DNA of 64,000 bases, from positions 806,001 to 870,000 of the forward strand of contig NZ_JAINZO010000002.1 of NCBI RefSeq assembly GCF_020179605.1, given 5' to 3'. The DNA is from Geomonas agri (GTDB taxonomy: Bacteria; Desulfobacterota; Desulfuromonadia; Geobacterales; Geobacteraceae). Both the position numbers and the translations under genes were made by a program. The notes beneath the pieces were generated by a model that was given only the letters and a program-made list of their open reading frames with translations, was not told the DNA's origin and made no database searches. Positions 33,623-52,146 of the stretch are shown here, one piece after another. How positions within the stretch are numbered: the stretch's first letter is position 1; the number at the start of each line of letters is the position of its first letter.

Positions 33623-33736
33623 CCTGTAGGGGCGAATTATGATTCGCCCCCCTCCACGCGCCACTGGTCCGGCTGCCGCACAGATGTGCAAGCGGGGACC
33701 GCAGCGGCTGGGCGAATAGTATTCGCCCCCTACAGG
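33623..33736. repeat. REP doublet with 15-bp inverted ends (REPIN-like)
   Basis: The element begins CCTGTAGGGGCGAAT (33623-33637) and ends ATTCGCCCCCTACAGG (33721-33736), its inverse but for one extra C. Each end forms its own hairpin (GGGGCGAA/TTCGCCCC at 33629-33650; GGGCGAAT/ATTCGCCC at 33710-33728). It sits in the 200-bp gap between the radical-SAM gene and rng. Confidence 0.75.
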
Positions 33737-40069: not shown

Positions 40070-41464
40070 TCAGTGCAACGCCGCCTCGATTGCCCCCAGC
40101 AGTGGCCCGGGGTAAACCCCAATTACCAGGATCATGATAGATGCGCAGCAGAGGGCGATGCCCTCGGCAAGCGAGACAGGCTTGGGCGCTGGAGCTTCTC
40201 CGCGGTGCATGTAGAGCTGAGCTACCACCCTGAGGTAGAAATAGGCGGAAGCCGCGGCGCATAGGATGCCGATGATAGCGAGGGCGATAGCGCCACCCTT
40301 TATGGCGGAGTAGAAGATGAAGAACTTACCGACAAAGCCTGCTGCCGGCGGAATGCCCGCCAGGGAGATCATGGCGAGAGCCAGCACGCCGCCGCGCAAG
40401 GGAGCAGTGAAGCCGAGCCCGGCATAGTCAGTGATCAGTTCTCTCTCCTGCTCGACCGAAAGAGAGGAGATGGCGCCGAAGGCGGCCAAGTTCATGGCGG
40501 TGTAGACCGCGCCGTAGAGCAGGACCGCGGCGTAGCCGTCACGACTGCCGCTCATCAGGGCGAGGGCCAGGTATCCCATGTGCGCCACCGAGGAGTAGGC
40601 CAGCATCCTCTTTATATTCTGCTGCGGCAGCGCGGCAAGGTTGCCAAGCACCATGGAAAGCACCGACAATGCGGCGAGCGGAACACGAAGCTCTACCATG
40701 GGGGGGGACAAGGCCAGCAGCATCAGCAGAAGCGCCGCTGCCGCCACTTTGGAGCTAGTGGAGAGAAAGGCGGAAACGGGTGCGGGGGCGCCTTGGTAGA
40801 CGTCCGGCGTCCAGAGGTGCCCAGGGACCAGGGAGAGTTTGAAAGCCATCCCTACGAGGATGACACCCCACCCTGCCGAGATGATGGCGCGGTTGTCGGG
40901 GCGGGCCAGGGCGCCAGAGAGTTGAAGAGTGCCGCTGCCGGTGAAGAGCAGGGCGAAGCCGAAGGCGGTGAACGCGGCGGCGACCGCTCCGAGCAGCAGG
41001 TACTTCAGTCCCGCCTCACCCGATTCTGCCCGGTTCAGGTCCATGCTGACCAGGATGTAGAAGGCGAAGGAGACCGATTCCAGCGCGAGGAACAGCACCA
41101 GCATATTGGTTGCACAGGGGAGCACGCAGGTGGCGAACAGGGCGAAGAGCACCGTGGCGGGGAATTCCTCCCCCTTGATGCCGCGGCGTTCATTGTAGCT
41201 GTGGGAGAGGAGCAGGGTAAGCGCAGCGGCGAAGCAAAAGAGCGGGATCAGGAACCTGGCCAGCGGCGTGAACGCAAGGCCCGTGACTGCCTGAGTGGAT
41301 GTCGGTGTCGAGAGGGCTGCCCAGATGCCTGCGGCCGCCGAGGTCGTCACGCCGATGGCGGTAAGGCTAGCCGACAAGAGCACCGGTCCGACCAGCAGCA
41401 CGAACAGCGCCCCCGCCGCAGTGATGATAATCGGCATGATGGAATATAAATCAGCAAGCGTCAT
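40070..41464 (-). CDS. nuoN: NADH-quinone oxidoreductase subunit N
   Basis: The 464-residue membrane protein of about 14 helices belongs to the Mrp antiporter-like proton-pumping subunits. Typical blocks include [19 protein letters not shown] and [19 protein letters not shown]. NuoN lies in the membrane arm of complex I. ATG 41464 has GGAG 6 bp upstream; an ATG at 41476 is in frame but lacks a site. It is the last gene of the nuo operon. It is parted from nuoM by a 445-bp inverted-repeat-bounded cassette, so its expression may depend on read-through. Confidence 0.95.
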
Positions 41465-41491
41465 TAGATGCTCCAACGATAAAAGCTCACC

Positions 41492-41936
41492 ACAGAGGTC
41501 TCAGAGGTCCACAGAGTACTCAGAGGATAATCCTTTCAATACCGTCCTTCAGGTGGAGTTCTCCAAAGTTCAGGAGAAGGCCTAACTTCTTTTTACTCAA
41601 CTTGAGATATGACAGGAGCTGCGCTTTGTGGACAGGGTGCAGTTTTTCCAGGGCCTTTAGCTCTACGATGATCTGCTCTTCCACAAGAAGGTCGACCCGG
41701 TACCCCAAGTCAATAGTCACCCCGTCGTAAAAGACAGGGAGGCACACTTGGGTGGCAGTCCTAAAGCCTCGTTTTACCAGTTCGTGATTGAGACATGCCT
41801 CGTAGGCGCTTTCCAATAACCCGGGACCAAGTGTCGTATGGACTTTGAGAGCTGCATCGATGATATGCCCTGTAATGAGATTAGCTTCCATACAAGGTTT
41901 TCCTCCGTGCTCTCTGTGGACCTCTGAGTCCTCTGT
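41492..41936. mobile_element. Inverted-repeat-bounded cassette carrying a GxxExxY gene, within the nuo operon
   Basis: The outer ends, 41492-41516 and 41912-41936, are inverted repeats of 25 bp matching at 24 positions (left ACAGAGGTCTCAGAGG with TCCACAGAG). The cassette contains one gene, GxxExxY, and fills almost the whole gap between nuoM and nuoN. No transposase is present, so movement would need help in trans. Confidence 0.6.
41520..41891 (-). CDS. GxxExxY-family protein (PD-(D/E)XK nuclease-like)
   Basis: The 123-residue protein contains the family signature GPGLLESAYEACL, followed by YRVDLLVEEQIIVELKALEK, in which Asp, Glu and the Lys of ELKA fit a PD-(D/E)XK nuclease core. GxxExxY proteins are widespread, short, often in repeat-bounded cassettes, and of unknown function. 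The start ATG 41891 has GGAGG about 10 bp upstream, inside the repeat-adjacent region. The stop TGA falls in a CTCTGAG unit of the left repeat. It lies between nuoM and nuoN on the same strand. Confidence 0.85.
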   Translation of the reverse strand: MEANLITGHIIDAALKVHTTLGPGLLESAYEACLNHELVKRGFRTATQVCLPVFYDGVTIDLGYRVDLLVEEQIIVELKALEKLHPVHKAQLLSYLKLSKKKLGLLLNFGELHLKDGIERIIL

Positions 41937-41945
41937 GTTCCGGGT

Positions 41946-43424
41946 TTACTGCTTCAACAGGACCTCCAACGGTGCTCTAAACAGTTCCAGCACCGGCCCC
42001 GGGTGCACGCCGAGGGCGACCACCACCAGCGCCATCACGCCCAGCACCCCCGCCTCCCTCAGCGACAGGTCCTTAAGTTCCAGCGGCGTCTTCTCTTTGC
42101 CGAACACCACCTCCTGAACCAACCGTACCGTATAGACCAGCGTCAGTATGGTCCCCAGGAAGGCGAGGGCGGCAGCCAGCGGCGCGACCCGGAAGGTCCC
42201 GACCAGGATGATCAGCTCGCTGACAAAGTTGTTGAGCCCCGGCACCCCGGCTGACGCCATGTTGAAGACGAGGAAGAAGAAGGAAAAGACGGGTATCTTG
42301 CCCCAGGTGCCGCCGAAGCTGGAAAGATCGCGGTTCTCTGCCCGCTCCTCCAGCATGCCGACCACGACGAACAGCGCACCGGTGGTAACGGCATGGTTCA
42401 CCATCTGCAGCAGCGCGCCTGACACCGCGACGGGACTCCAGGCGGCGATGCCGAGCGCTACGAAGCCCATGTGGCTGACGCTCGAATAGGCCAGCATCCG
42501 CTTCATGTCCCGCTGCGCGAAGGCGATCCAGGCAAAGTAGCCGATGCCGAGCACGGCCACCACGTAGATCAGCGGCGTGAGAGCGCGCGATGCCTCGGGA
42601 AAGAGCGGAAACGCAATGCGGATCAGGCCATAAGCGGCGGTTTTGGAGAGGAGGCTGCCGAGCATAAGCGTGCCGGCAATGGGGGCGTCGCAATAGGCAT
42701 CCGGCTGCCAGGTATGCAGCGGGAACAGCGGGAACTTGATGGCAAAGGAGAGCAGGAACGCGGCGAACAGCCATAGCCCGGTCTCGTACGGGATGCTGGT
42801 GCGCACCAACTCGGGCAAGGCGAAGGTGTAGCTCGCGGTTTGCGCCCCGTGCATCAGGTAAAGCGCGATGATGGCCAGCAGCATGAGCAGCGAGCCGACG
42901 AAGGTGTAGAGGAAGAACTTGATGGTGGAGTACACCGGCCGGCCGCGCCCCCAGACGCCGATCAAAAGCAGCATCGGGATCAGCATAGCCTCCCAGAAAA
43001 GGTAGAAGAGGAACAGGTCGAGGCTCAGGAACAGACCTTGTACGGCGGCCTGCAGGGCGAGCAAAAGGGAGAAGAACAGCCCGGCTCGCTCCTTCACCTG
43101 CCAGGCGGAGAGCACGGCGATCACGGTGATGAAGGCAGTCAGCAGGGTCATCACGAGGCTGATTCCGTCCATACTCAGTGTAAAGCGGATCCCGAACCGT
43201 TCGATCCACGCTGCATCCTGGTAGAGGAAGAACCCGGCCGGCGTGCCAGCAGCTTTCTCGCCGGTCAGCGCGAGCGGCCACAGGCACAGCGCCAGTTCGG
43301 CCAGGCTGAACGCGAGCGCGACGCCACGTGCCGCCGCGTCGCTGCGCCGGAGGGCGAAGACCAGCAGCGACCCGCAGAGCGGGAAGAAGACCAGCAGCGT
43401 GAGTATCGGGATGAGAGAAGTCAT
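41946..43424 (-). CDS. nuoM: NADH-quinone oxidoreductase subunit M
   Basis: The 492-residue membrane protein is an antiporter-like proton-pumping subunit. FYLFWEAMLIPMLLLIGVWG with its conserved Glu and KFPLFPLHTWQPDAYCDAP are hallmarks, as is [19 protein letters not shown]. It has full family length. The start at 43424 has CGGGAACTGCCG upstream. It lies 35 bp after nuoL. Confidence 0.96.
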   Translation of the reverse strand: MTSLIPILTLLVFFPLCGSLLVFALRRSDAAARGVALAFSLAELALCLWPLALTGEKAAGTPAGFFLYQDAAWIERFGIRFTLSMDGISLVMTLLTAFITVIAVLSAWQVKERAGLFFSLLLALQAAVQGLFLSLDLFLFYLFWEAMLIPMLLLIGVWGRGRPVYSTIKFFLYTFVGSLLMLLAIIALYLMHGAQTASYTFALPELVRTSIPYETGLWLFAAFLLSFAIKFPLFPLHTWQPDAYCDAPIAGTLMLGSLLSKTAAYGLIRIAFPLFPEASRALTPLIYVVAVLGIGYFAWIAFAQRDMKRMLAYSSVSHMGFVALGIAAWSPVAVSGALLQMVNHAVTTGALFVVVGMLEERAENRDLSSFGGTWGKIPVFSFFFLVFNMASAGVPGLNNFVSELIILVGTFRVAPLAAALAFLGTILTLVYTVRLVQEVVFGKEKTPLELKDLSLREAGVLGVMALVVVALGVHPGPVLELFRAPLEVLLKQ

Positions 43425-46314: not shown

Positions 46315-46405
46315 TCCCTCCCCCGGAGGGGGAGGGGCAGGGAGGGGGAAAGGCCTTGCGCCAACAGCTGCCCCCCTCCCAACCTCCCCCCTCCGGGGGG
46401 AGGAG
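46315..46405. repeat. Paired GC-rich palindromic element (nuoI-nuoJ gap)
   Basis: The left half is CCCTCCCCCGGAGGGGGAGG followed by a G-rich tail. The right half is CCCCCCTCCCAACCTCCCCC then CTCCGGGGGGAGGAG. It shares length (about 90 bp) and order with 48643-48733 and 52060-52146. Confidence 0.8.
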
Positions 46406-52037: not shown

Positions 52038-52059
52038 GTGATCCTGTCATTCCATTGTC

Positions 52060-52146
52060 TCCCTCCCCCGGAGGGGGAGGGGCGGGGAGGGGGAATAAGG
52101 CTGCCTTGCCCCCCCTCCCGACCTCCCCCCTCCGGGGGGAGGAGGT
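52060..52146. repeat. Paired GC-rich palindromic element (nuoE-nuoF gap)
   Basis: The left half is CCCTCCCCCGGAGGGGGAGG followed by GGCGGGGAGGGGGAA. The right half is CCCCCCCTCCCGACCTCCCC then CCTCCGGGGGGAGGAGG. Same layout as 46315-46405 and 48643-48733. Confidence 0.8.

Follow-up and report, generated by a model that had tools for sequence, protein, structure and literature searches.

In Geomonas agri, the gap between nuoM and nuoN holds an element in which inverted arrays of a 7-8 bp word, with short variable linkers between the units, enclose a gene for a GxxExxY protein. By analogy with REPIN-RAYT systems, this cassette would be the member that carries the gene in a pairing of repeat and protein, with a nuclease in place of the Y1 transposase, a reading that we hold with about even confidence. 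The element lies in a stretch of 64,000 nucleotides (contig NZ_JAINZO010000002.1, positions 806,001 to 870,000), here called the window, and positions below are those of the window.

The cassette spans approximately positions 41480-41948, inside the nuoM-nuoN gap. The preliminary description had given it near-perfect inverted ends of 25 bp built from ACAGAGG units, and this held up: positions 41492-41516 and the reverse complement of 41912-41936 are identical at 24 of 25 positions, and both arms consist of ACAGAGG-type units set as inverted arrays. The arms reach beyond these cores, covering 41480-41530 on the 3' side of the gene (CTCACCACAGAGG-TCTCAGAGG-TCCACAGAG-TACTCAGAGG, plus strand) and 41898-41948 on its 5' side (GGAACACAGAGG-ACTCAGAGG-TCCACAGAGAG-CACGGAGG, minus strand), and over these 51 nt they are 78% complementary. 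A scan of the window for inverted pairs whose arms are at most 700 apart listed 16, these arms first, and their same-geometry score of 51 was matched by one of 3000 random window placements, placements overlapping the element included; this score, and the flank counts against controls across GxxExxY loci given below, rule out a chance inverted repeat. As also proposed, the gene (41520-41891, minus strand) fills the gap on the coding strand, its neighbours NuoN, NuoM and NuoL being co-stranded (NuoM and NuoN identified by profile), with nuoM upstream (41946-43424, minus strand) and nuoN downstream (40070-41476, minus strand), and it takes its TGA stop codon (41520-41522, minus strand) from a repeat-like unit, CTCTGAG. 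A Shine-Dalgarno-like GGAGG (minus-strand feature, plus-strand positions 41902-41906) precedes its ATG and belongs, by eye, to the innermost unit of the 5'-side arm. No transposase was found within the cassette.

Elsewhere in the window, two near-alike GC-rich palindromes of the CCCTCCCCCGGAGGGGGAGGGG type (46315-46404 and 52059-52144) perhaps represent a further multicopy family, and by eye several ACAGAGG mini-elements in relatives (L274, L275, L277, L288, L289) contain GC-rich palindromes that resemble them somewhat. An inverted pair, CCTGTAGGGGCGAAT ... ATTCGCCCCCTACAGG, with arms 60 nt apart, occupies 33623-33736.

The cargo is indeed a nuclease-fold protein, as had been suggested. Its 123 residues match the GxxExxY family of PD-(D/E)XK proteins (TIGR04256, E 4e-43; PF13366, E 5e-42) well above the curated cut-offs of 35 and 22 bits, at 146.4 and 143.4 bits, respectively. 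All 81 aligned sequences, that of the window protein among them, have E27, D67, E77, K79 and Q91, and at least 90% have Y95; the motif set D, ExK (E77-x-K79) and QxxxY (Q91-xxx-Y95) is one that we take to be RecB/Cas4-like. An AlphaFold2 model (mean pLDDT 95.9) found its best PDB match in 4ic1 (SSO0001; E 9e-4, with a TM-score of only 0.46 by query length), followed by lambda exonuclease, and a search by sequence for a relative of solved structure returned a single, unconvincing match (E 0.66). The fold is thus shared with Cas4, lambda exonuclease and RecB-type nucleases, but the weak Cas4 profile matches fall under the curated cut-offs (16.8 bits against 22.7 in Pfam, 12.3 against 65 in NCBIfam) and we rejected a Cas4 identity; unlike Cas4, the protein has 123 residues and is encoded outside any CRISPR locus. 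Between the window and G018, a relative in the same genus, the gene shows a dN/dS of 0.04, at synonymous sites that are near saturation; against G004 these sites are saturated, so that no ratio could be given. From this ratio and the invariant active site we conclude that the gene is kept by strong purifying selection. At E 1e-5, only 7 of 72,556 plasmid records and none of 50,697 phage records gave a GxxExxY match, and we therefore discarded plasmids and phages as its vehicle.

In order to follow the history of this copy, we compared the nuoM-nuoN gap in 19 genomes of the genus, judging its state by eye. An intact GxxExxY gene with ACAGAGG ends is present in only three (G000, G018, G004), so the cassette is far from being the same in all relatives. 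One genome (G003) has a gene with an altered C terminus, in three (G014, G011, G010) the ends enclose a gene that is broken or has an internal deletion, and five (G005, G006, G007, G009, G012) have the ends alone, some of them worn. A different array, of CCCATAA type, fills the gap in four (G001, G002, G013, G015), and three (G008, G016, G017) have neither cassette nor other array. Compared between the window and G018, the GxxExxY gene has a synonymous divergence of 0.63, above the 0.39 of nuoM and the 0.46 of nuoN. Because of this divergence and the decayed versions in relatives, the cassette is an old resident of the site that is decaying to its ends alone; a recent insertion is rejected on the same grounds, and with it the earlier idea of a mobile unit, insofar as it meant a recent move of this copy. 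It had also been suggested to look in the relatives for target duplications, and no clean one was found at empty sites, which were judged by eye. No copy was seen moving in the genomes compared. Four relatives' loci (L043, L044, L046, L053) carry a CCCATAACTCCCAGACTTCCCAT-type array where the window has its cassette, and a locus of a second protein family described below, S23 (L402), has a similar word, GGTTATGGG.

The bracketing of the gene extends far beyond this site. We took the best 80 of 579 GxxExxY matches across phyla, a set that leans to relatives of the window protein, and scored the inverted similarity of their flanks with a threshold of >28; 79 of the 80 loci have flanks on both sides and one does not. 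Inverted flanks bracket 67 of these 79 genes, in many bacterial phyla and in archaea, compared with 2 of 279 shifted controls from the same loci. The nuclease/repeat pair of the preliminary description is in this respect well supported and much wider than one cassette, and the inverted ends at other GxxExxY genes are often built from another word. Most of these flanks are arrays of short words, the words being various, and 63 of the 67 flanked loci have an arm in which an exact 5-mer comes back after 7-12 nt; L122 is one of the four loci lacking a recurring 5-mer and by eye has no array. Flank pairs taken from different loci exceeded the threshold in 50 of 465 cases, an excess presumably due to words shared between loci. 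We also asked whether the arms match most tightly within one element, and dropped the idea, the outcome being unclear: at 37 of 67 loci the right arm of the element itself outscored every foreign right arm. Among 30 further GxxExxY loci from the window's phylum, 24 scored >28 versus 2 of 114 controls, and at least two of the 24 (L182, L183) have inverted flanks in which no short word is seen by eye.

A second protein family has the same architecture. Both GxxExxY and S23 are common annotations for which, to our knowledge, no role is on record. In the genus, S23 four-helix-bundle genes (TIGR02436; 22 taken of 30 fetched at E below 1e-20) score >28 at 21 of 22 loci, a count made with no control. 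In the phylum, 25 of 30 S23 loci are bracketed by inverted arrays, compared with 2 of 116 controls; two of the 30 end at contig ends, and one of the misses, L419, is perhaps misplaced for that reason. The array words of S23 loci (L226-L251, L395-L424) include GGGGCTAGGG, AGATAAAG, CAATTGA, GTTCAACG, GTTCTACG and others. We know of no nuclease site in S23; its genes, bracketed likewise, widen the class and suggest that the array architecture does not need a nuclease. S23 (23S_rRNA_IVP) genes also occur in the intervening sequences of 23S rRNA, which, as reported in PMC11270868, are thought to spread horizontally and are cleaved by RNase III; here the S23 genes are bracketed by inverted arrays and, unlike those intervening sequences, the elements sit between protein genes, and GxxExxY is a different family.

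At the GxxExxY loci, the word follows the protein. Across the 67 flanked loci, protein identity correlates with arm similarity (rho 0.26, reached by none of 2000 permutations), showing that the word follows the protein tree and that GxxExxY clades differ in word. At least six words occur at the GxxExxY genes of the genus, genes with the same word having similar proteins by eye, and seven typed representative proteins share 32-55% identity. We then counted arrays in 50 genomes picked by hand from 78, subtracting the sampled locus itself; the word of the sampled gene was CACAGAG in 11 of them, CGCAAAG in 13 and neither in 26. Genomes whose sampled gene has CACAGAG contain more CACAGAG arrays than the others (median 10 versus 2-3, one-sided p 0.043), and those with a sampled CGCAAAG gene more CGCAAAG arrays (median 12 versus 1-2, one-sided p 0.0015); a ratio test gave p 0.0016 and the cross tests were not significant. 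The test is noisy because genomes usually carry several GxxExxY genes. Within the genus, the number of ACAGAGG arrays does not track the presence of an intact ACAGAGG-type gene (p 0.16), and G012 has 74 array hits, yet its sole GxxExxY gene carries another word.

To determine which residues might read the word, we collected 125 proteins, of which 86 have countable units and 78 a clear A or G at unit letter 5. On the protein tree, letter 5 changes 10 times against 26.2 +/- 2.2 after shuffling (78 loci), and letter 2 changes 16 times against 26.2 +/- 2.3 (81 loci). On each of four trees built from different column sets (10 or 11 independent pairs), the column that best tracks letter 5 is residue 7, in helix 1; on the all-column tree it gave 6.4 concordant versus 0.0 discordant over 11 independent pairs, being mostly T with letter-5 G and A with A, while S occurs with both. 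Residue 15 is among the top eight columns for letter 5 on four trees and residue 11 on three, and helix-1 columns as a group outrank the others (p 0.0005, 0.0035, 0.027 and 0.040 on the four trees), although these values stem from 10-11 switches, non-independent columns and residue scores taken from pooled frequencies. Some trees likewise place columns beyond helix 1 (35, 68, 71 and 102) near the top; letter 2 gave no helix-1 signal, and a pair test restricted to supported branches retained three pairs and had no power. Residue 12 of helix 1 was set aside: G versus D splits letter 5 in pooled data, but with independent pairs the column falls outside the top 15, and its signal looks clade-bound. 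The co-variation of letter 5 with helix-1 residues, residue 7 foremost, suggests that the protein may directly recognise its word, helix 1 (residues 7, 11 and 15) reading letter 5.

An alternative is that the arrays spread by other machinery, be it some transposase or host recombination or replication, and that GxxExxY and S23 are merely open reading frames held between them and inherited with them. That one architecture serves two different protein families, the two in which we looked at bracketing, is what such passengers would show, as is the persistence of arrays that lack the gene; co-inheritance alone would yield the correlation of word with clade and could yield the genome counts. It would not be expected, however, to make helix-1 residues co-vary with one letter of the unit on independent branches, or to leave an invariant active site and a gene under strong purifying selection. 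We regard this alternative as unlikely, while placing it ahead of the two discussed below.

Arrays also occur where no gene lies between them. The genome of the window has two GxxExxY genes, the second of which (L002) is bracketed by the word GCAAAG. Ends with and without a gene, for which a search had been suggested, are both present: nine pattern hits resolve into six places with ACAGAGG arrays, namely the cassette and the gene-less L003, L005, L006, L008 and L011. Genus-wide, ACAGAGG pattern hits number 0 to 97 per genome and GxxExxY matches one to four, and many of the gene-bearing copies stand, by eye, at shared places. The 97 hits of G003 form 39 clusters, the nuoM-nuoN copy included, and in all 17 clusters holding both orientations the plus array precedes the minus array. 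Linkers between exact units in G003 measure 1-3 nt and vary in letters and length, so the arms need not pair base for base. The gene-less pairs are scattered between genes, several within co-directional runs, a placement judged by reading the sites. Asking whether G003 mini-elements close reading frames gave no clear answer: no frame runs open through 8 of the 39, but short elements are numerous; and a constant polarity of mini-elements relative to transcription, seen by eye at a few sites, was discarded, many G003 elements having alike ends. GGGATA arrays were seen by eye nested in or beside ACAGAGG elements in G003 (L331, L346, L350, L351, L359), and in G004 a probable insertion sequence, also by eye, lies within an ACAGAGG array (L369) where G003 has an uninterrupted pair.

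The occupant of a given site changes between species. At the L002 site, five genomes (G000, G002, G003, G009, G018) have a gene with the GCAAAG word and seven (G001, G005, G006, G007, G010, G011, G013) a gene of another clade with GGGATA; G014 has gene-less GGGATA arrays, G008 a remnant, and G004 an ACGGAT-word pair together with a GCAAAG remnant. The element is absent from G016; G017 has two matches, one without arrays and the other with a CACAGAGG array further on, and the comparison returned no row for G012 and G015. Of three mini-element sites, two vary in word or lack it among species, and the third is present in five and unseen elsewhere. Of sixteen G003 sites sought in G004 and G012, 15 were located in each genome; the element or its word is different at several of them, and one is empty in G012.

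These observations bear on the possibility that the intergenic arrays are protein-binding sites or mRNA hairpins in host regulation or RNA processing, with GxxExxY as a domesticated factor acting on them. The location of arrays between genes at the sites read, several in co-directional runs by eye, would suit this explanation, as would the cleavage of 23S rRNA intervening sequences by RNase III (PMC11270868) and the proposal by Aklujkar 2009 (PMC2700814) that paired arrays of G. metallireducens bind a global regulator. Against it, words change or disappear at one site among related species, the variable linkers of G003 remove the need for exact pairing of the arms, and no Rfam family reached its gathering threshold in 8 loci, a result that also led us to drop a known structured RNA as a candidate. 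We consider host regulation improbable. Slightly less probable still is homing, by which the nuclease would cut a gene-less array and repair would copy the gene in, as for a free-standing homing endonuclease gene: the L002 site does show one word, GGGATA, with a gene in seven genomes and gene-less in G014, but the gene fragments between intact ends at nuoM-nuoN in G011 and G010 indicate deletion rather than gain, and genomes of the genus hold one to four GxxExxY matches against as many as 97 array hits.

We return to the reading as a REPIN-RAYT-like pair. REPIN-RAYT systems, as presented in PMC8049555 and PMC3733652, have a repeat-flanked gene, genes specific to their repeats and inverted repeat pairs, and RAYT genes are reported as unseen on plasmids (PMC8049555). 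Likewise, the elements described here have a repeat-flanked gene that is rare on plasmids, gene-less inverted pairs dispersed between genes and a gene per repeat family, and the number of arrays goes in part with the gene's word across phyla, though not significantly within the genus. They differ in that the flanked gene of REPIN-RAYT encodes a Y1 (HUH) transposase and here a PD-(D/E)XK nuclease, and in that REPIN-RAYT hairpins are GTAG-tagged, whereas here the words are tandem, 8-10 bp long and ACAGAGG-type, with no GTAG seen by eye at the element ends. A MITE of an IS element would share its ends with a transposase-bearing IS and show a target duplication; the cassette contains no transposase, and empty sites are, by eye, without a clean duplication. 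In Geobacter metallireducens, tandem arrays paired on opposite strands were listed as 'predicted global regulator binding sites', classes 1-3, with words that include MTYCTGA and TCTCCGTS (Aklujkar 2009, PMC2700814); like ours, these are short tandem units paired on opposite strands at variable distance. Multicopy sequences are also found between genes in G. bemidjiensis, where they occupy 12% of intergenic regions and their insertion is non-random (Aklujkar 2010, PMC2996986). In the passages and legends on these repeats, neither report links them to GxxExxY or S23. The literature searched (open-licence PMC, main text) yielded no paper that pairs arrays with either family, and searching with six array sequences as text returned no paper on the pairing by title or abstract.

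How such a pair would work can be outlined conditionally. The nuclease would cut or nick at the arrays, either in duplex DNA or where single strands fold into a hairpin, after which the array pair, mostly without the gene, would be copied by repair or replication into tolerated sites, new pairs landing often in or beside existing arrays. The gene itself would seldom move and would be maintained by purifying selection, and internal deletion, as at nuoM-nuoN, would yield part of the gene-less pairs. The preliminary description had considered a cassette that spreads with no transposase of its own; the nuclease may itself mobilise the repeats. With somewhat less than even confidence, we extend this to a general proposal: GxxExxY nucleases and S23 bundles, which are unrelated, would each define families of array-bounded elements in prokaryotes, in which the word is the recognition site and is determined by residues of the protein, those of helix 1 in the case of GxxExxY; gene-less pairs would replicate without an HUH or DDE transposase, and the multicopy arrays of Geobacter would be such populations.

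Through the inverted arrays, GxxExxY and S23 each gain a testable partner. The pairing offers an explanation for Geobacter repeat families once noted as possible regulator sites, and it points to a system of repeat populations that has no known transposase. The pairs of word and protein could form a natural series of sequence-reading nucleases.
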